Source: Bryobacteraceae bacterium (GTDB lineage: Bacteria > Acidobacteriota > Terriglobia > Bryobacterales > Bryobacteraceae). Taken from it: a stretch of DNA of 35,432 nucleotides. The stretch lies in the NCBI GenBank assembly GCA_014860455.1, contig JACZJQ010000166.1:1-35432 (forward strand), in the 5' to 3' direction. Position 1 is the stretch's first letter, and each line of letters starts with the position of its first letter. Below are positions 1,555 through 17,674 of the stretch, in pieces. A program made the position numbers and the translations under genes. A model generated the notes under the pieces. It saw nothing but the letters and a program-made list of their open reading frames with translations, searched no databases and was not told where the DNA came from.

Positions 1555-3966
1555 TTGACGCCGCTTCCCATCGACACGCTGTTGCCCGAGATTGTCTCGA
1601 CGCTGAAGGAGTGGAACTGCGTCGTACTTGAGGCACCGCCGGGTGCGGGCAAAACGACGCGGGTGCCGGCGGCGCTGCTGGATGCGGGCTATGTCGAGAC
1701 GGTGGTGCTGGAGCCGCGGAGGATCGCCGCGCGGATGGCGGCCAGGCGGGTGTCGGCAGAGCGGGGCGAGACGGTGGGGCGTACGGTGGGGTACCAGGTG
1801 CGTTTGGAACAGGCGGCGTCGGAGGCGACGCGGCTGCGGTTTCTCACCGAAGGCGTGCTGACGAGGAGGCTGCTGGCGGATCCGTTGCTGAAGGGCGTGG
1901 AGTGCGTGGTGCTGGATGAGTTTCACGAACGGCACCTGGAGGGCGATCTGGCGCTGGCGCTGTTGAGGCGGTTGCAGGCCAGGAGGCCGGATTTGCGGCT
2001 GGTGGTGATGTCGGCGACGTTGCAGGGCGAAGCCTTGGCACGGCATATGGGCGGGTGCCCGGTGTTGAGAAGCGAGGGGAGGCTGTATCCGCTGGAGATT
2101 GGCTATACGCCGCATTCGACGGACCGGTTGGACGCGCAGGTGGCGGAGGCGGTGGCGGGGATCGTGAAGTCGGAGGCGTCGGGCGACGTGTTGGTCTTCC
2201 TGCCGGGGGCGGCGGAGATCAGGGCGTCGCAGCGGGCGCTGGAGGGTCTCGCCGCCCAGAAGGACCTGCTGGTTCTGCCGCTGCATGGGGACCTTTCACC
2301 GGAAGAGCAGGACAGGGCGGTGGAGCCGGCATCGAGGCGGAAGGTGATCCTGTCGACCAATGTGGCCGAGAGTTCGATCACGATTGAGGGCGTTCGGGCG
2401 GTGGTCGATTCGGGGCTGGCGCGGGTGGCGTCGGATTCGGCGTATAGCGGGTTGCAGAGGGTGGAGGTGGGCAGGATCAGCAGGGCGTCGGCGACACAGC
2501 GGGCCGGGCGCGCGGGGAGGACGGGTCCGGGCAAGGTAGTTCGGCTGTATCCAGAGGCGGATTTCCTGCGGCGTCCGGAGTATGACACGCCTGAGATTTT
2601 GAGGCGGGAGTTGTCGGGGCTGGTGCTGGATCTGGCGGCTTCGGGGGTGGATGATCCGTTGAAGCTGGAATGGCTGGACGGGCCGCCGGAGGCTGCGTTG
2701 AATGCCGCGCGGGCGTTGCTGGAGAGGTTGGGGGCGGTGGACGCGGCGGGTCGGGTGACGAGGGATGGACGGCGAATGGCCGGGCTGCCGTTGCATCCGA
2801 GGTTGGCGAAACTGGCGGTTGCGGCCGAGGCGCGGGGCGCGGGCGATGCGGGCGTGGCGGCGGCAGCGGCGTTGAGCGCGGGGGCGCGGTTGACGGGCGC
2901 GCCGGCGCATCCGTCGCCGTCGGATTTGTTGCTGCTCATCGAAACGGGGATGACTTCGTACGCACGACGGTTGGAGCAGCAATTGAGGCGGATGGCGAGG
3001 CCGAGGACATCGGGCGGAGGGGACGAGGCGTTTCAAAAAGCCGTGCTGGAGGCGTTTCCTGACAGGGTGGCGCGGGTGTCGGGTGGAGGGTCGTACAGAC
3101 TGGCTGGGGGCGGATCGGCGCAACTGGCGCGGGACAGCGCGCAGGCAGGGCGCAAGTTGATCGTGGCGATCGAGGTTGAAGAGCGGCGGGATGCGGGCGC
3201 ACCGTTGATCCGGCTGGCGAGCGCGGTGGAGCCGGAGTGGCTGCTGGAGCTGTTTCCGGAGCGGGTGGAGGCGGCGTCGGAGGCGCGGTGGAACCGGGAG
3301 GCGGAGAGGGTGGAGCAGATTGATCTGCTGCTCTATGACGGGCTGCCGATTGATGAGTCGCGGTCGCACAAGGTGGATTCGGATGAGGCGACGGCACTGC
3401 TGGCGATGAAGGCGATCGAGACGGGGCTGCATCGGATCTGCGACGCCGAGGCGTTTGAGGCCTTCAGGCAAAGGCTGGCGTTCGCGGCGGAGCATTCGGA
3501 TCTGAGGCCAGTCGATGACGAGCGGTTGCGGGAGGCCGTTGAGGGGCTGGCGCGGGGGTTGAGGTCGATGGACGAGTTGAAGGAGCGGGCGTCGGAGGGC
3601 GGGTTGGAGCAGGCTGTGGTGGGCGCGATGGGTCCGGAGGCGAAGAGGACGTTGGACAAACTGGCGCCGGAGCGGATCCGGCTGGCGTCGGGGCGGATGG
3701 CGCGGGTGAGCTATGCGGAAGGGCAGACGCCGTGGGTCGAGTCGCGCTTGCAGGATTTCTTCGGGATGAAGGAGACGCCGGCGGTGGCGGGTGGGCGAGT
3801 CCGCTTGGTGGTGCATCTGCTGGCGCCGAGCTATCGGCCGGTGCAGGTGACGTCGGATTTGGAGGGATTCTGGGAGCGGCACTATCCGGCGATCCGGAAG
3901 GAGTTGATGCGGAGGTATCCCAAGCATAAGTGGCCAGAGAACCCATACACTTTGAGTCAGGTATGA
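1555..3966 (+). CDS. hrpB: ATP-dependent helicase HrpB
   Basis: An 803-residue DEAH/DExH superfamily 2 helicase of the HrpB family, close to the usual length of about 800-850. Visible motifs in order: Walker A GAGKTT (30-35), DEFH box (121-124) followed by ERHLEGDLALAL, SAT motif (153-155), and motif VI QRAGRAGRTGPG starting at 315. The C-terminal half carries the long HrpB-specific region. The start is TTG, giving MTPLPIDTLLPEI, which matches the normal HrpB N-terminus; no strong ribosome site precedes it. HrpB is a widespread RNA helicase with poorly defined cellular role. The last codons overlap the ATG of the next gene by 4 bases (ATGA), so the two are probably co-translated. Its strong GC3 bias produces long antisense frames, which are not genes. 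Confidence 0.93.
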   Translation: MTPLPIDTLLPEIVSTLKEWNCVVLEAPPGAGKTTRVPAALLDAGYVETVVLEPRRIAARMAARRVSAERGETVGRTVGYQVRLEQAASEATRLRFLTEGVLTRRLLADPLLKGVECVVLDEFHERHLEGDLALALLRRLQARRPDLRLVVMSATLQGEALARHMGGCPVLRSEGRLYPLEIGYTPHSTDRLDAQVAEAVAGIVKSEASGDVLVFLPGAAEIRASQRALEGLAAQKDLLVLPLHGDLSPEEQDRAVEPASRRKVILSTNVAESSITIEGVRAVVDSGLARVASDSAYSGLQRVEVGRISRASATQRAGRAGRTGPGKVVRLYPEADFLRRPEYDTPEILRRELSGLVLDLAASGVDDPLKLEWLDGPPEAALNAARALLERLGAVDAAGRVTRDGRRMAGLPLHPRLAKLAVAAEARGAGDAGVAAAAALSAGARLTGAPAHPSPSDLLLLIETGMTSYARRLEQQLRRMARPRTSGGGDEAFQKAVLEAFPDRVARVSGGGSYRLAGGGSAQLARDSAQAGRKLIVAIEVEERRDAGAPLIRLASAVEPEWLLELFPERVEAASEARWNREAERVEQIDLLLYDGLPIDESRSHKVDSDEATALLAMKAIETGLHRICDAEAFEAFRQRLAFAAEHSDLRPVDDERLREAVEGLARGLRSMDELKERASEGGLEQAVVGAMGPEAKRTLDKLAPERIRLASGRMARVSYAEGQTPWVESRLQDFFGMKETPAVAGGRVRLVVHLLAPSYRPVQVTSDLEGFWERHYPAIRKELMRRYPKHKWPENPYTLSQV

Positions 3967-5135
3967 AGTACTCGCTTTTGTTGATGACAGCCGGGCTGGC
4001 CCTGGCCCAGACGCCGAGAGGGACTTGGGACGCGATGGTGATGGCGGAGGATCGCGAGATCGGGTTCCAGATGAAGTTCGAGACGCGGGCGGGCAAGCTG
4101 CAGGCGGCGGTGATGGACGGAGACAGGCCGATCTGGTCGACGTCGGCGGTGTTCACGCAGGGCAAGTTGACGGTGAAGTGGGATTTCTATGCGGGGTCGC
4201 TGGTAGCGGCGATGCAGGGCGGTGAGTTGAAGGGGACCTATACGCGGCGGACACGGCGGGGACCTGTCAGCAGGGCGTTTTCGGCGCGTCCGGCGGTTGC
4301 GGGCAAGACGGGTGCGGCGGCGAAGTCGGCATTCGACGGCGACTGGGTGCTGACGCCGGATGGCGGCGGGGCCGGGATGAAGGCGCGGTTCTGGATGGCG
4401 GGGGGCAAGCTGACGGGCACGGTGCTGCGGATCGACGGCGACTTCGGAACGATGGCCGGAGAAACCGACGGGAACAGGGCGACGCTGACGCATTTCGACC
4501 TGGTGCGGGCGACGCAGGTGACGCTTGCCCTGGATGACGCGGGCAAGTTGACTGGGACGATTGACGGGAAGACGAAGTTTACGGGTTTGCGCGAAGGGGC
4601 GTCGATGCCGGATCCGAGCACGGTGACGCGGGTGAGGGATGCGAACGAACCGTTCACGTTCACGGCGCGGGACCTGGCGGGCAAGCCGGTGACCCTGGCC
4701 GATGGACGGTTCAAGGGCGAGGCGGTGTTGATCACGATCATGGGCAGCTGGTGCCCGAACTGTCATGATGAATCGCCCTTCCTCACGGAACTCTATAAGA
4801 AATATGGCCCGTCTGGGTTTGAGGTAGTGGCACTGGCGTTTGAGTACACCGGCGATGCGGCGGTGGACGTGCCGCAGATTCAGGCGTTCAACCGGCGCCA
4901 CAACGTTCCGTATCTGACGCTGCTGGCCGGGTCGACCGAAGACGGGCAGGTGCAGAAGGCGATGCCGCAACTGGTGAACTTCAGCGCGTTTCCGACGTCG
5001 ATCGTGGTGGACCGGGCTCACCGGGTGGTGGCGATCCATGCCGGATTTGCCGGGCCAGCGACGGGCAGCCTGCATACCGAGTTGAAGGCCAAGATGACGG
5101 CCGAGGTGGAGCAGGCGCTCGCCCGAGGCAGGTAG
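3963..5135 (+). CDS. Secreted thioredoxin-fold (TlpA/AhpC-like) protein
   Basis: A 390-residue exported protein. I start it at the ATG at 3963, inside the hrpB stop (ATGA overlap), because this gives a clean signal peptide, MKYSLLLMTAGLALA, with cleavage before QTPRG. An in-frame start further upstream would spoil it. Residues of about 18-100 and 115-215 look like two related beta-rich repeats (see findings). From about 230 a thioredoxin/TlpA-like domain follows, with the redox motif WCPNC (Cys264 and Cys267), then a long FEVVALAFEYTGD strand-helix region typical of TlpA/AhpC-TSA proteins. Likely role: periplasmic thiol-disulfide exchange or thiol-dependent peroxide reduction; the partner is unknown. 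Coupling to hrpB is positional and need not mean shared function. Confidence 0.82.
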   Translation: MKYSLLLMTAGLALAQTPRGTWDAMVMAEDREIGFQMKFETRAGKLQAAVMDGDRPIWSTSAVFTQGKLTVKWDFYAGSLVAAMQGGELKGTYTRRTRRGPVSRAFSARPAVAGKTGAAAKSAFDGDWVLTPDGGGAGMKARFWMAGGKLTGTVLRIDGDFGTMAGETDGNRATLTHFDLVRATQVTLALDDAGKLTGTIDGKTKFTGLREGASMPDPSTVTRVRDANEPFTFTARDLAGKPVTLADGRFKGEAVLITIMGSWCPNCHDESPFLTELYKKYGPSGFEVVALAFEYTGDAAVDVPQIQAFNRRHNVPYLTLLAGSTEDGQVQKAMPQLVNFSAFPTSIVVDRAHRVVAIHAGFAGPATGSLHTELKAKMTAEVEQALARGR

Positions 5136-11293: not shown

Positions 11294-11674
11294 TCAGGCG
11301 GCCTGGTAGAGCGCGGAATAGACGCCGAGGGGATCTTGGATGACAGCCATCGAGCCGGGTCCGGTTTTCGCCGGACGTTTTACAACCGTGCCGCCGGCGG
11401 CTTCGACCTCGTCGAGCGCGGCTTCGATGCTGGCGACGATGATGTAGATCATCCAGACGGGCGGCAGGTCCTGATTCGGTCCGCGGCGATGGCAGACGCC
11501 GGCGACGGGCGTGCCGGTTTCCGGGTTCATCATGCTGAAGTCGTCGTAGCCGCCCATGGAGACGGGTTCGGGTTTCCAGCCGGCCACTCGGGCATAGAAG
11601 TCGCGCAGCACGGGCGCGTCGTCGACGGTGAGGTCCACCCAGCCGATGGTGCCCGGCTTCATCTGTTCGCTCAT
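11294..11674 (-). CDS. VOC-family (glyoxalase/dioxygenase fold) protein
   Basis: A 126-residue protein of the vicinal-oxygen-chelate superfamily, similar in pattern to the glyoxalase-like proteins that carry two short beta-alpha-beta units. Visible: GWVDLTVDDAPVLRDFYARVAGW (11-33) at the N-terminus, VWMIYIIVASIEAALDEVEAAGGTVV in the middle, and the C-terminal IQDPLGVYSALYQ, which normally carries a metal-ligand position. An AGGAGG lies 6 bases before the ATG. It faces recJ. The substrate is not evident; such proteins act as lyases, dioxygenases or resistance proteins. Confidence 0.85.
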   Translation of the reverse strand: MSEQMKPGTIGWVDLTVDDAPVLRDFYARVAGWKPEPVSMGGYDDFSMMNPETGTPVAGVCHRRGPNQDLPPVWMIYIIVASIEAALDEVEAAGGTVVKRPAKTGPGSMAVIQDPLGVYSALYQAA

Positions 11675-11813
11675 TGTTAGCCTCCTCTGACGAATGCGTC
11701 ACGCGGGACGCGGTTCAGGCATCTTCGCATAACAGGACTGTTCAAAGCAGCCAGCGACACACATGAGCTTCTTGTCACGGTACGGCCTTGGGCGGCATCA
11801 TAAAGGCAGACGT
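11675..11813. other. Intergenic space before the candidate selenoprotein
   Basis: No gene. It should hold divergent promoters for the VOC gene and for the small plus-strand gene. The best plus-strand match is TTGTCA (11772-11777) with CATCAT (11796-11801, 18-base spacer), which is weak. Confidence 0.3.
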
Positions 11814-12014
11814 ATGCCCGACTACATCGTATTGCCAGCGGCGATCCTGTTCTACTTCCTGCTGATGAAGTTCGTATTGCCGCGCTTTGGGGTGCCCACT
11901 TGAATGGCGGACACGTGCGACGTCGGGTCCCGGCGTCCTAAGAGCGAGAAGACGATGGAGTTGAAGCGCGACGTCACCGCGCCGGTGAAGCCCGGAGCGG
12001 GATCTTCACGCTAA
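11814..12014 (+). CDS. Small membrane protein, candidate selenoprotein (UGA at codon 30)
   Basis: Read normally, this is a 29-residue peptide, MPDYIVLPAAILFYFLLMKF then VLPRFGVPT, ending at TGA (11901-11903). AAAGG lies 7 bases before the ATG. The hydrophobic stretch (about 5-23) should be one membrane helix. The frame stays open for 36 further codons to TAA (12012-12014). The continuation is U-M-A-D-T-C, placing Cys35 five residues after the UGA, followed by a hydrophilic, Lys/Arg-rich tail (KSEKTMELKRD). Thirty of those 36 codons end in G or C, as in real genes here. A hairpin suited to a bacterial SECIS follows the UGA (11919-11937). The predicted product is 66 residues with a Sec-x4-Cys redox motif. 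The last 41 bases overlap the converging gene. Alternatives: only the 29-residue peptide is made, or neither. Confidence 0.5.
11919..11937 (+). promoter_or_regulatory. SECIS-like hairpin after the in-frame UGA
   Basis: GACGUCGG (11919-11926) pairs with CCGGCGUC (11930-11937): seven Watson-Crick pairs and one U-G wobble (11923 with 11933), loop GUC. If the top pair opens, the loop reads GGUCC and contains the GGUC seen in the apex of the E. coli fdhF SECIS. The loop begins 24 bases after the UGA, inside the 16-37 base window I recall for bacterial SECIS elements, with G first in the loop. Function in recoding is inference. Confidence 0.45.
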
Positions 12015-12546
12015 ACGCTCCGCGCAGTTCGCCTGCTTTGTAGCCGGTCGCCAGGTCCTTTGAGTAGGATCTGGCGAGTTGCTTTTTGACCGGGTCGGGG
12101 ATCTGCGCCGCCGAGCCGTGGCAGGAGAGGCACATGCCCTGGATGACGATGGGTTTCAGGAGGCGATGGACACTGGCGCCGTTTTCGTCGACCGTGACTT
12201 CGATCTCCACGGGCAGCGGCTTCCCTGCCCTGAGGACGGCCTCCATTTGAGCAAGTTGCGAGCGTTCCCAGGCGTCGGGGGCGTTGGCCGGGTTGCGGTG
12301 CTTGAGCGTGACACGGCGGATGTCTACGCCTGCCTGGGCGGCGAAATCACGCGTGACTTTCTGGGCGCTGGTGGAACAGGCATGGACGGCGCCTTCGAAT
12401 CCGCCCTTGGCGAGTTCCTCGCCGAGCAGGGTCTTCAGCTTTTCGGCTAATCCGGCGACGGCGGAGCGGGCCTGGGCGGCGGGGTCGGGCGCCGCGGCCA
12501 GCAGCACGACGGCAAAGATCATGAGACCGGAGAACAGACGGTGCAT
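11974..12546 (-). CDS. Tll0287-like (DUF3365) single-heme protein
   Basis: A 190-residue exported protein. The N-terminus MHRLFSGLMIFAVVLLAAA is a signal peptide. A mostly helical region follows, including FEGAVHACSTSAQKVTRDFAAQAG with a free Cys57, then RVTLKHRNPANAPDAWE, a motif typical of Tll0287-like/DUF3365 heme sensor or redox domains. The c-type heme site CLSCH is at 139-143. The family is known as stand-alone periplasmic cytochromes or sensor domains; here there is no kinase or other output domain, so it is probably a soluble electron carrier or redox sensor. Its 3' end overlaps the candidate selenoprotein frame by 41 bases on the other strand. It is divergent from the 12632 gene. Confidence 0.87.
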   Translation of the reverse strand: MHRLFSGLMIFAVVLLAAAPDPAAQARSAVAGLAEKLKTLLGEELAKGGFEGAVHACSTSAQKVTRDFAAQAGVDIRRVTLKHRNPANAPDAWERSQLAQMEAVLRAGKPLPVEIEVTVDENGASVHRLLKPIVIQGMCLSCHGSAAQIPDPVKKQLARSYSKDLATGYKAGELRGAFSVKIPLRASPAR

Positions 12547-13519: not shown

Positions 13520-13825
13520 TCAGCGGGCGCCGGCGCGCTGGTGGAGCCAATGGCGGAGGGAGTCCTGAGTCTCACCGGAGCGGCGGCCGGCGAGCAGGCT
13601 TTCGACGCTGATGTCCTCATCGAGATCCGGCCAGTGGATGCCCTCACCGGAGCCGATGAGACGCCAATTGGCGCGCTCGGCCGCGGTCCCGTGCTTCAGG
13701 CGCGGGAACCACGCCAGAGGGGCGGTGATGGTGCGGCCGTCGGCGAGATCCACTGCCAGCGCGTCCCGGCGCACAGCCACGGCCCGCGCCAACGCTTGCC
13801 CAATTTCAGTTCCCAAAGTACTCAT
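13520..13825 (-). CDS. DUF2442 protein, likely partner of DUF4160
   Basis: A 101-residue protein matching the DUF2442 pattern: VRRDALAVDLADGRTITAPLAWFPRL, then GSGEGIHWPDLDEDISVESLLAG, the usual 'W..(D)GIHW..LDEDI' core. It ends in a short basic tail. Its ATG lies inside the last codons of the upstream DUF4160 gene (20-base overlap), so the two are translationally coupled. DUF4160/DUF2442 pairs are often adjacent and have been suspected of being toxin-antitoxin-like modules, with DUF2442 the more antitoxin-like member; no activity is shown by the sequence. Confidence 0.85.
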   Translation of the reverse strand: MSTLGTEIGQALARAVAVRRDALAVDLADGRTITAPLAWFPRLKHGTAAERANWRLIGSGEGIHWPDLDEDISVESLLAGRRSGETQDSLRHWLHQRAGAR

Positions 13826-14042
13826 GCCATGCCCTCAGCAGTGTGGCTGCGTTCTGTGACACCAGCCGCTCGATCCTGACGATCTCCGGGCGGCCAAAAC
13901 CCCGACTGTACTCCAATCTTACCGGTTCAAGCCAAAACTTCGCCGTTGAATCTTCGCGTTCGACGTGCACATGCGGCGGCTCGTCACGATCCGCAGAGTA
14001 GACGAAGAAACGGTGTGGACCCGTCCGGAGAATCGTCGGCAC
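13806..14042 (-). CDS. DUF4160 protein
   Basis: A 78-residue protein with the full DUF4160 pattern: MPTILRTGPHRFFVYSADRD, then EPPHVHVER with the paired histidines, AKFWLEPVRL, GFGRPEIVRIERLVSQN and AWHEYFGN at the end. The start is GTG at 14042, preceded by an in-frame stop, and gives the family's usual N-terminus; no clear ribosome site is present. It is first in a two-gene unit with the DUF2442 gene. The family's role is unknown; it is suspected of being the effector half of a small two-gene module. Confidence 0.87.
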   Translation of the reverse strand: MPTILRTGPHRFFVYSADRDEPPHVHVEREDSTAKFWLEPVRLEYSRGFGRPEIVRIERLVSQNAATLLRAWHEYFGN

Positions 14043-14245: not shown

Positions 14246-14404
14246 AGTGCGAGGACCCCCTGAAGGAGGGTCGCCGTTGACCGGATCAGTCGAACAGCAA
14301 CACGTTGCACCGACCGGCGCAGACCGGGTGTGGCGGATGCCGGTTGCACGCTCCGGACACGGAGGCCCGTCCGCGAGAATCGATCATTCGTAGGGGATAT
14401 TGCT

Positions 14405-17400
14405 ATGTGGAGTAATGGGATGGGGATACTGGCTGCCCTGCTGGCGGCGCTGGCGATGCCGATGCCAGCGGCGAAGGCGCCTGATCCCGCGGCAGCGCGG
14501 AGGACGACGTTTGCCATCGATTTTTCGCGCGCCAATGTAGCGCAGGTGGCCAACAATGCCGAGGTGACGCCGACGATCAAGCCGGAAGCGTTGAAGGGCA
14601 CGCTGGTGATGCGCGGCAACGGGACGCCGGTGTTCAAATCGAGCGGCACCGGGATTTCTTTCACCAGATCGGGCCAGCAGAACGGGAATACGTCGTTCTA
14701 CAACTTCTCGGGCACAGGTCTGGACGAAGTGTTCGAGTACCGGGTGCCCGGCCAGGTGGAAGTGAAAGTGGAGAGCAAGTACAGTTTCGCCGAACGGCGA
14801 GCATTGCCGTCGGTTGAAGGCAACCGCTTCGTCTACCGTGTTGCCTTCCACGCCTCGGAAGGCGAGGGCTACACGGTGGCCAAACTCGCCTGGGGAATGC
14901 AGGACGACTACATCGCCTTTTTCGCCAACTTTTTCAACAGCGGCTACACGTATTTTGTGCCGAAGGGTTCGGAAGACACTCTGTTCGGCAAGGGCGTGAC
15001 GATGCGCATCCGCGTCACCTGGGACGGGAACGGGAAGGCGGCGATGTATGTCAACAACGGCCAGGTGGCGACGTTCAACTACCCGCTGGTGAACCCCAAG
15101 TGGACCGGCAAGCCGGTGCTCAGCCTGGGCGCATCGAATGCGAGCGACTACGGCGGCGGTTTCTGGGCGTGCGACGACTACCTGCACACGCTGGCGGTGG
15201 AAAGCGAAGGTCCGTATGTCGACGCCATTCCGCCGGCGGTCTCGTTCCTGGAACCGAGGCAAGGCGAGTCGCAACGCGGCGTGATCCGGCTGGCGGCTAA
15301 GGCGACCGACAACATCTCGAATCCGAAGGTGCAGTTTTTTGTGGATGGCTCGCCGCTGGGCGAGGTGCTGACATCGAATCCGTTCCAGCGGCTTTGGGAT
15401 AGCCGCACGGTTGCCGACGGGCGGCACACGCTTTCGGTGAAAGCCACAGACGATGCGGGCAACAACGGGACAACTGAGTTGGAACTGGAGATCGTAAATG
15501 GCGTCCCGGTGAGCATGGACGCGCGTCCGGGGCCGCCCGGCGGGCAGCGGGTGTTGCATACCGAAGCCGGGATGGTGAGGATCGGATGGGAGTCGTCGAC
15601 TGACGACGCCGGGGTGGCGCGCTACGACATTTACCGCGACGACAGGCGGATCGCCTCGGTCCCGCAGGGCGCTGTGGAGGAGTTGCAGACGTTTGCCGAC
15701 ATGAGCGCGGGGACGCAGCAAGCCTACACGTATAAGATCCAGGCGGTGGATGTGGGCGGCAACCGGTCGGCGTTTTCGGCGCCGCTTTGGGTGAAGACCG
15801 GCACGGGAAGGACATTGATGGTGGGACCAGGCCACCCGTACGCCAAGCCGTGCGCGGCGATCGCAGCCGCATCGCCGGGCGACACAATCGAAGTGGATGC
15901 CGCAGGAAACGGCACATACGACGGCGATGTCTGCTTCTGGTCAAAGGCGGACCTGACGATTCGCGGCGTGAACGGCATGGCGCGGATCGATGCCGCGGGC
16001 AAGAACTCGCAGGGCAAGGCGATCTGGGTGATCGCCGGCGCGAACACGCTGGTCGAGAACATTGAACTTTCCGGCTGCAAGGTGCCGGACGGCAATGGCG
16101 CCGGCATCCGCGCCGAAGGCCAGGGACTGTTCCTGAGGCGGGTGTATTTCCACCACAACCAAAACGGCGTGCTCGGCATGGCCGAGTTGAAGGGGACGAT
16201 GACCATCGAGTTCAGCGAGTTCGCCTACCACGGCACCGATGGGTCCACCCACAACATGTATATCTCGGCGGTCGACAACTTCATCCTGCGCTACTCCTAT
16301 TCGCACCACTGCCGGAGCGGCCACCTGGTGAAGACGCGCGCCAGAACAAACCACATTCTCTACAACCGGCTGACCGACGAGGACGGTACGGCCAGCTACG
16401 AGTTGCAGATCGCCAACGGCGGGACTGCGTATGTCATCGGCAACGACATTCAGCAATCTCCGCGGTCGGAAAACAGCAACATCATCGCCTACGGGCACGA
16501 GGGGTTGCACGGCACACCCGCGCCGAAGTTCTATTTCCTGAACAACACGGTGGTGAACCGGCACAACGCCGACGGTTGCGCGCTGCTCATCATGGAGCAG
16601 GTCGCCCAACAGCCGGTGATCCAGAACAACGTGATCCAGACTTCCAAATGGACGATCTGCGACACCAAGGCGGCGCCGTCGCTGCGGGTGAACAACTACA
16701 TGGGCGGCGGCGTGGAGTTCTACTCGCCCGAGATGCACGACTACAGGATTGTGAGCATCAACGGCGAGCAAATTCGGGGCTCGGATTACGGCGCGCTCGG
16801 GGTTGATCTCAAGTCGCCCAGGTATATCTACGAGCATCCGATGTCGGCCAGCGAACTGATGGAGGTAAGCGATCCGCTGATCGGCGCCAGATGGGTGTCG
16901 GGCCAGCCGGGCAACGCGGGCAGCGGCGGTGATGACGGCGGCGAGCCGATGCAGGGGTCGGATTGGATTCTGAATGCCGCCAGCAGACAGTCGGCAACGC
17001 TGGCGCCTGCGTCGCTGGCCAGCGCGATGGGCGACTCGTTCACCACAGAGACGCTTTACGCCCCTGGCGACAATTTGCCTGAAGAACTGGGCGGGGTGGC
17101 CATCACCATCACAGACAGCGCGGGCGTCAGTCATGCGGCGCGCATCAGCATGGCCGCGCCCAATCAGGCCGACTTCCATATCCCCGGCGGCGTGGCGCCT
17201 GGAATGGCCCAGGTGCTGATCCGGAAGCAGGACGGCGGCAGCATCACGGGCTCCATCTTTGTGACGGCGACGGGTCCGGGGCTGTTTTCGGTGGATGGCA
17301 GCGGATCGGGCGTGGGCCTGATCTCGGTGATCCACCGGGACGAATCGGGCAACGACACTTGGTCGGCGGCATTCAGCGACGCTTCGGGGACTATGGCCGC

Positions 17401-17674
17401 GGCTCCGATTTCAATGAGCGACGCATCGCGGAAAGTGTACTTGCAGTTGTACGGGACCGGGATCCGGCCGGCGAGCGGTGCGGCGGGAGTGACGGTGAAG
17501 GTGGGCGGCGTCAACGTACCGATAGAATCGGTCGCCGCGCACGGCAGCCTGGCCGGCATCGACGAGATCCGCGTCGGGCCGTTGCCGCAAAGCCTTGCCG
17601 GAGGCGGCGTGGCGACAATCGAGCTGACGGCCGGTGGCCGGGCATCGAACGTCGTCACGGTGCTGCTGCAATAG
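14405..17674 (+). CDS. Large secreted beta-helix protein with Ig/FnIII repeats and Solibacter-type C-terminal domain
   Basis: A 1089-residue exported protein. The ATG at 14405 is preceded by AGGGGA at 7 bases and gives a signal peptide (MGILAALLAALAMPMPAAKA). Domains in order: a concanavalin/LamG-like beta-sandwich (about 40-275); a bacterial Ig-like domain (about 278-370, VSFLEPRQGE to LELEIVNG); an FnIII-like domain (about 375-470, YDIYRDDRRIASV, YTYKIQAVDVGG); a right-handed parallel beta-helix (about 475-820) with many N/I/V ladder repeats and a TIEVDA-like opening; a Gly-rich linker (GNAGSGGDDGGE); and a C-terminal region of about 230 residues (from WILNAASRQSATLAPASLAS) matching the TIGR03437-type domain of Solibacter-like Acidobacteria. 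Probably a polysaccharide-binding or -degrading cell-surface protein; no catalytic site was identified. Confidence 0.85.
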   Translation: MWSNGMGILAALLAALAMPMPAAKAPDPAAARRTTFAIDFSRANVAQVANNAEVTPTIKPEALKGTLVMRGNGTPVFKSSGTGISFTRSGQQNGNTSFYNFSGTGLDEVFEYRVPGQVEVKVESKYSFAERRALPSVEGNRFVYRVAFHASEGEGYTVAKLAWGMQDDYIAFFANFFNSGYTYFVPKGSEDTLFGKGVTMRIRVTWDGNGKAAMYVNNGQVATFNYPLVNPKWTGKPVLSLGASNASDYGGGFWACDDYLHTLAVESEGPYVDAIPPAVSFLEPRQGESQRGVIRLAAKATDNISNPKVQFFVDGSPLGEVLTSNPFQRLWDSRTVADGRHTLSVKATDDAGNNGTTELELEIVNGVPVSMDARPGPPGGQRVLHTEAGMVRIGWESSTDDAGVARYDIYRDDRRIASVPQGAVEELQTFADMSAGTQQAYTYKIQAVDVGGNRSAFSAPLWVKTGTGRTLMVGPGHPYAKPCAAIAAASPGDTIEVDAAGNGTYDGDVCFWSKADLTIRGVNGMARIDAAGKNSQGKAIWVIAGANTLVENIELSGCKVPDGNGAGIRAEGQGLFLRRVYFHHNQNGVLGMAELKGTMTIEFSEFAYHGTDGSTHNMYISAVDNFILRYSYSHHCRSGHLVKTRARTNHILYNRLTDEDGTASYELQIANGGTAYVIGNDIQQSPRSENSNIIAYGHEGLHGTPAPKFYFLNNTVVNRHNADGCALLIMEQVAQQPVIQNNVIQTSKWTICDTKAAPSLRVNNYMGGGVEFYSPEMHDYRIVSINGEQIRGSDYGALGVDLKSPRYIYEHPMSASELMEVSDPLIGARWVSGQPGNAGSGGDDGGEPMQGSDWILNAASRQSATLAPASLASAMGDSFTTETLYAPGDNLPEELGGVAITITDSAGVSHAARISMAAPNQADFHIPGGVAPGMAQVLIRKQDGGSITGSIFVTATGPGLFSVDGSGSGVGLISVIHRDESGNDTWSAAFSDASGTMAAAPISMSDASRKVYLQLYGTGIRPASGAAGVTVKVGGVNVPIESVAAHGSLAGIDEIRVGPLPQSLAGGGVATIELTAGGRASNVVTVLLQ

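Follow-up and report, generated by a model that had tools for sequence, protein, structure and literature searches.

The window analysed here, the whole stretch of 35,432 nucleotides, contains a reading frame that starts at an ATG (11814), reaches a TGA after 29 codons and then continues through 36 open codons to a TAA at 12012–12014. The question raised by this locus is whether the TGA ends a very short peptide or is decoded as selenocysteine (Sec), as the initial annotation had suggested when it described a candidate tiny membrane selenoprotein. Re-reading of the coordinates confirmed the 29 + 36 codon frame, the Sec-x4-Cys spacing and the codon usage that had been reported for the tail, in which 30 of 36 codons end in G or C. 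The read-through product is MPDYIVLPAAILFYFLLMKFVLPRFGVPT-U-MADTCDVGSRRPKSEKTMELKRDVTAPVKPGAGSSR. The features concerned are the following.

11814–12014, + strand: predicted selenoprotein gene including its TAA stop, product of 66 residues with Sec30
11901–11903, + strand: UGA codon predicted to be read as Sec (residue 30); TGA in 77 of 80 loci and a Cys codon in three of 80
11916–11918, + strand: TGC, codon of the conserved partner cysteine (residue 35)

An open run of this length is, by itself, compatible with chance, as at least 36 open codons follow 186 of the 558 TGAs in the three frames of the + strand of the window. The case therefore needs comparison with relatives. In the upstream direction the open frame extends to another in-frame ATG, at 11763, despite which the equivalent of the start at 11814 is the one kept in relatives.

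The read-through protein was used as the query in a search of 61 genomes, including that of the host, with clear homologues defined by E values no higher than 3.3e–5 and matches of 0.017 or above counted as chance. Clear homologues were found in 16 of the 61 genomes, with TGA at the Sec position in 14 and TGT in two. Two of the latter matches, L028 and L029, were inspected and proved not to be homologous. A scan of GTDB genomes employed a pattern (Y..LP) that is situated entirely 5′ of the codon in question and is, as such, blind to what follows it. That scan yielded 93 relatives, of which 80 were kept. The initial annotation had proposed that orthologues be searched for Cys or TGA at codon 30, and these were the codons observed: TGA in 77 loci, TGC in two and TGT in one. 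All 77 of the non-Cys loci have TGA, and TAA or TAG never occurs. Over both searches, a Cys codon replaces TGA in four genomes. The relatives from the GTDB scan are labelled mostly as Bryobacterales and other Acidobacteriota, with some as Deltaproteobacteria, KSB1, Planctomycetota and Verrucomicrobiales.

A profile built from 63 sequences matched 87 of 396 genomes of the host phylum, with TGA inside 82 of the 88 matching rows; the six stop-free rows comprise the Cys form of genome G026 and five partial matches. The same profile matched 135 of 345 genomes of a second phylum (that of L065, labelled Deltaproteobacteria), with TGA inside every match among those listed. The codon is TGA in all 40 of the second-phylum loci that were retrieved. 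The motif used to place the latter in the alignment demanded P, G, T and U, so that the invariance of these residues is partly imposed in 38 of the 119 sequences aligned in total; it missed two of the 40 loci, both of which have TGA when read without the motif and are absent from the 38. In alignment A4, L195 and L198 do not start at Met, and L180, L183, L192 and L194 were omitted. No match to the family was found in the plasmid and phage collections.

The core consensus over the 119 sequences is LP[RK]xGV[PS]T-U-M[SA]x[STA]C. Loss of conservation after the TGA would have spoken against the initial proposal, but it is not what was observed: Met directly follows the Sec position in 105 of the 119 sequences, and Cys occupies position +5 in 107, lying one residue earlier in seven of the other 12. 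Among relatives, the frame after the TGA stays open for 14 to 55 codons (median 28). Over 18 hand-chosen close pairs, pN/pS is 0.13 for the helix part and 0.26 for the 12 codons that bear the hairpin described below, with weak constraint (0.71) in the tail beyond it. The read-through frame is significant because it is conserved among homologues.

The nearly constant Met would also suit an arrangement of two tiny cistrons, in which a 29-residue helix stops at the UGA and a 36-residue peptide is re-initiated at the next ATG, since in 76 of the 78 first-set rows the codon right after the TGA is ATG. However, Cys codons join the two parts into one frame in four genomes, and the codon after the TGA is something other than ATG in 11 of the 38 second-phylum sequences (including GCT in three, and GCC, GTA and TTA in one each). 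The exclusive use of TGA in the 77 non-Cys loci and the covariation of the hairpin likewise argue against separate cistrons, which we regard as very improbable.

Decoding of UGA as Sec in bacteria would be expected to involve a SECIS hairpin, and a candidate lies immediately downstream of the codon for Cys35.

11919–11937, + strand: predicted SECIS hairpin, 8-bp stem with apical loop GUC (11927–11929); covariation at 8 of 8 pairs, bacterial SECIS model satisfied

This hairpin of 19 nt begins 15 nt past the UGA, has its loop 23 nt from the UGA and has a predicted energy of –11.3 kcal/mol. Presumably it resembles the element of Escherichia coli fdhF. The bacterial SECIS (bSECIS) model, as given in section 5 of PMC13188914, calls for a G in the first two loop positions, a distance of 16–37 nt from the UGA and a minimum free energy of –7.5 or lower, and the values for the window hairpin (GUC, 23 nt and –11.3 kcal/mol) agree with that description. 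The element thus shares with bacterial SECIS elements a stem-loop right after the UGA and a G that opens a small apical loop at an appropriate distance, but differs in having a 3-nt loop on an 8-bp stem, and no SECIS family was matched in an Rfam scan of the region. A sub-threshold Rfam match to FinP, on the opposite strand, was judged to be due to chance.

Comparative data support the hairpin. In an alignment of 67 TGA rows (excluding seven rows with a one-residue deletion, four near-identical rows and three Cys rows), 83.2% of the cells pair, as compared with 24–48% when one side is slid against the other. Changes on both sides of a pair were observed in 93 cells, versus 26.5 in shuffles, and all eight pairs show them. 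A simplified, bulge-free version of the bSECIS test was passed by 61 of 78 TGA rows and failed by 17, as against 404 passes for 5000 random TGAs of the same loci; the apical loop is GUC in 46 of the 78. The inner six pairs occur in the same register in the 38 second-phylum sequences (70.6% paired, versus 32–47%), of which 21 passed the bSECIS test and 17 failed. Among the Cys forms, L057 and L024 retain four of the eight stem pairs, and L049 and L068 six; in L049 a hairpin in a shifted position passes the test, and none does so in L057, L024 and L068. Synonymous change over the 18 close pairs was 0.133 in the hairpin codons, compared with 0.263 in the helix, a reduction that is expected if the RNA is constrained.

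As the hairpin is itself GC-rich and conserved, it might be argued that the TGA is an ordinary stop and that what is conserved beyond it is an RNA feature of the 3′ region, or a terminator, and not protein. The retention of Cys at +5 in the great majority of sequences, the Cys forms that remain in frame and the length of the open frame past the TGA are all difficult to reconcile with that explanation, and no T run is present 3′ of the window hairpin. An untranslated element therefore seems highly unlikely to account for the data, and the downstream codons are better viewed as coding sequence that also carries a SECIS element.

The plausibility of Sec insertion depends further on the presence of the corresponding machinery, which the initial annotation had identified as a point to be settled in the host genome. 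That genome encodes a tRNA-Sec (73 bits, anticodon UCA), SelA (489 bits) and SelB (365 bits). The expectation held for these components and failed for SelD, as no match over the cut-off was found in the host assembly, which is 95% complete. SelD scored over the cut-off in 36 of the 41 genomes searched, including G003, which belongs to the genus of the host, so a gap in the assembly is the likely reason. The SelD of G003, like that of many relatives, has an in-frame TGA.

Of 27 TGA genomes, 25 gave a SelB match over the cut-off, but only one of four Cys genomes did so (Fisher p=0.008). The TGA genomes consist of 14 relatives from the first search, 13 of them with SelB, and 13 genomes taken from the 80 loci, 12 of them with SelB; the 16 genomes of the latter survey were picked by hand. 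No SelB over the cut-off was found in two TGA genomes, G001 (84% complete) and that of L059. The Cys genomes are G018 (that of L057), G026 and those of L049 and L068, with SelB found only in the last; G018 is only 62% complete, which bears on its apparent lack of SelB. L049 and L087 encode closely similar proteins, the former locus having Cys and no SelB found, and the latter TGA and SelB.

These results also bear on whether the UGA might be recoded as some residue other than Sec, or simply be leaky. Cys is the sole replacement seen, the distribution of SelB largely follows that of the TGA and the SECIS model fits the window hairpin, so that any other form of recoding appears even less probable than the alternatives dismissed above. 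Taken together, the data argue very strongly that the product of this locus is a selenoprotein of 66 residues that crosses the membrane once, in which UGA codon 30 would be decoded by SelB and tRNA-Sec by means of the 8-bp SECIS hairpin. The tiny membrane selenoprotein of the initial annotation is accordingly upheld by the codon distribution, the Cys forms, the hairpin and the Sec machinery.

It was of interest to determine whether this protein belongs to a described family. Profile scans against Pfam-A and NCBIfam 20.0 were carried out with 16 members (the window protein plus 15 relatives), then with a second set of 24 (16 from the second phylum, seven from the host phylum and that of the window), and gave no credible match for any of them. 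The best matches, to the PP0621 family (E value of 0.01, 2 of 24), DMT_YdcZ (0.014, 1 of 24) and Arabinose_trans (0.03, 7 of 24), were attributed to mere likeness of helices. Table 1 of PMC13188914 lists 119 bacterial selenoprotein families and subfamilies, whose motifs are mostly UxxC or CxxU. No name or motif in that table fits the present protein, although several of its entries are given without a motif, and the hypothetical family GOS_A, named in PMC2398784, is missing from it. Searches of the literature yielded no description of the family. Given the absence of a Pfam or NCBIfam match, of a fitting entry in the PMC13188914 table and of any literature description, this is a new family of bacterial selenoproteins, undescribed as far as the searched sources reach, as had been surmised at the outset.

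The family has in common with other bacterial selenoproteins a UGA codon, a downstream SECIS, Cys forms and a redox-type Sec/Cys pair, and differs from them in consisting of a single helix with Sec-x4-Cys. A thioredoxin-like selenoprotein was considered and rejected, the motif here being U-x4-C as opposed to UxxC or CxxU, and the structural model a single helix with low confidence beyond it. SELENOK and SELENOS are short, single-pass, membrane-anchored selenoproteins of eukaryotes with Sec outside the helix; the likeness of the window protein to them is one of description, and homology is not claimed.

11820–11885, + strand: single helix, residues 3–24, presumed to span the membrane; AlphaFold2 helix 3–24, hydrophobic by eye

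AlphaFold2 predicted this one helix and no other element. Mean pLDDT values were 81 and 87 for the first and second blocks of ten residues and 64 overall, the part beyond the helix being modelled with low confidence. Of 81 sequences, 80 have a more positive net charge in the flank after the helix than at the N-terminus, the means being +2.42 and –0.89, respectively. According to the positive-inside rule, a positively charged flank lies at the cytosolic side of the membrane. The charge distribution thus suggests that the N-terminus is outside and that the Sec end is at the cytosolic face.

In the window, the gene is situated between a glyoxalase-like gene (11294–11674) and a Tll0287-like gene (11974–12546), both on the opposite strand, with the 3′ end of the latter overlapping the tail of the selenoprotein gene. 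Across the loci, the commonest neighbours by clustering are genes for universal stress protein (Usp) and DUF302 domains, in 10 loci each, with Pfam confirmation in one locus for Usp and in four for DUF302; the domain scans covered 40 proteins picked by hand from the ORFs of the loci. Neighbours related to redox or stress comprise DUF302, Usp, OsmC, thioredoxin, FAD oxidoreductases and pyridine-nucleotide disulphide oxidoreductases, one of them with a rhodanese domain. Others are an ABC ATPase, efflux proteins and, by eye, a cytochrome-c-peroxidase-like protein, as well as sugar enzymes, acetate kinase, a ClpB-type ATPase and further genes of no evident link. Neighbours vary between lineages, those of the second phylum differing from those of the first set, and clustering revealed no universal partner gene. 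Since the neighbours differ and no partner is universal, a redox function is something that we infer. In three second-phylum loci (L216, L218 and L226), related genes lie directly upstream of the selenoprotein gene, the product in L218 having, by eye, the look of an FmdB-type zinc ribbon.

The Sec residue of a genuine selenoprotein might instead serve in the handling of metals or metalloids. Genes for outer-membrane efflux proteins, a P-type cation ATPase or a multicopper oxidase do occur close to the selenoprotein gene in single loci, and several of the predicted transport-related selenoproteins in PMC13188914 are tied to heavy metals. On the other hand, the Usp and DUF302 genes are commoner neighbours, and no metal-binding motif was seen beyond Sec-x4-Cys. 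Metal handling is therefore considered the less likely function, albeit one to be taken seriously, and a membrane-anchored Sec-x4-Cys redox protein belonging to a stress regulon is the best reading of the data. The regulatory part of that reading derives from a sequence upstream of the gene.

11773–11799, + strand: promoter-like element TGTCAC-N17-CATC, with TGTCAC at 11773–11778 and CATC at 11796–11799, 14 nt before the ATG

The motif TGTCAC-N16/17-C[AG]TC was found within 100 nt 5′ of the start in 32 of 81 loci, including that of the window, compared with 0.29 expected from background, and is placed 8–34 nt ahead of the start in all 32. In eight further loci (L046, L048, L051, L056, L063, L070, L082 and L101) it occurs just ahead of a Usp gene directly upstream, and in L066 it precedes a DUF302 gene upstream of the selenoprotein gene. 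It is thus present before the selenoprotein gene or its upstream Usp or DUF302 gene in 41 of 81 loci, mostly acidobacterial and with near-identical loci counted apart. It was also observed ahead of downstream efflux genes in L054 and L103 and, by eye, ahead of an OsmC-like gene on the other strand in L112. In all, the matches elsewhere in these loci number 16, versus 5 in shuffles, and a few of them precede nothing evident. The element at 11773–11799 probably acts as a promoter, and the sharing of the motif by selenoprotein, Usp, DUF302, efflux and OsmC-like genes suggests a single stress regulon in the Acidobacteriota.

The consensus reported in PMC3426412 for promoters of ECF41 sigma factors is TGTCACA-n16-CGTC. 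The present motif agrees with it in the TGTCAC, the spacer of 16–17 nt and the C[AG]TC, but the targets named in that report are carboxymuconolactone decarboxylase, oxidoreductase or epimerase genes. A SigX4 (ECF41) factor scored over the cut-off in five of the 61 genomes, and with E values of 1e–20 or lower in 10; in the host genome none did so, the best score being 76.8 bits. Whole-genome counts of the motif were 7 versus 8 in the control for the host (G000), where there is accordingly no excess, 6 versus 1 for G003 and 13 versus 4 for G004; for the host, we propose no regulon that extends past this one gene. In L093, the selenoprotein gene is preceded, at a distance of approximately 220 nt, by a sigma factor gene (3898–4782) of the same strand. 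This sigma factor has sigma-70 regions 2 and 4, a weak SnoaL_2 match below the Pfam cut-off and a SigX4 score of 222 bits, which is less than the cut-off of 323 bits. In L103, a SigW-like ECF gene (4191–4805, – strand) adjoins the selenoprotein gene divergently and is itself preceded by the same TGTCAC motif, 58 nt before its frame. Because no SigX4 score in the host exceeds the cut-off and its genome shows no excess of the motif, ECF41 is one candidate for the factor that reads the promoter, the SigW-like ECF of L103 being another.

A possible mode of action can be outlined. Once SelB and tRNA-Sec had read the UGA under the guidance of the SECIS hairpin, the selenol of Sec30 would probably form a selenenyl-sulfide redox couple with Cys35, held at the membrane surface. 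Under stress, this selenol/thiol pair might reduce a peroxide, a persulfide or a membrane partner, with a thiol or flavin system of the cell then restoring its reduced form. That a membrane-held pair serves stress defence in this manner is a proposal for which we consider the chances roughly balanced. With somewhat greater confidence, we favour the broader view of a widespread family of minimal selenoproteins (a helix followed by LPxxGVPT-Sec-M-x3-Cys) in which Sec is near-universal, expression would be governed by an envelope- or oxidative-stress sigma factor, and a membrane-surface selenol would be common to several phyla.

Such a family would be a large addition to the known selenoproteins, given its matches in 87 of 396 and 135 of 345 genomes, and its members would be dropped or truncated by annotation. 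It would also extend the use of Sec to a single-helix membrane protein in which nothing points to a thioredoxin fold. The promoter motif offers a way to test which stress induces the gene, and so short a protein lends itself to peptide synthesis or to direct mass spectrometry.

Two other regions of the window may be mentioned. Genes for DUF4160 and DUF2442 proteins lie side by side on the – strand at 13520–14042, a pair that we take to resemble a toxin-antitoxin-type module. The + strand at 14330–17674 encodes a protein of 1114 residues with bacterial Ig and beta-helix domains.
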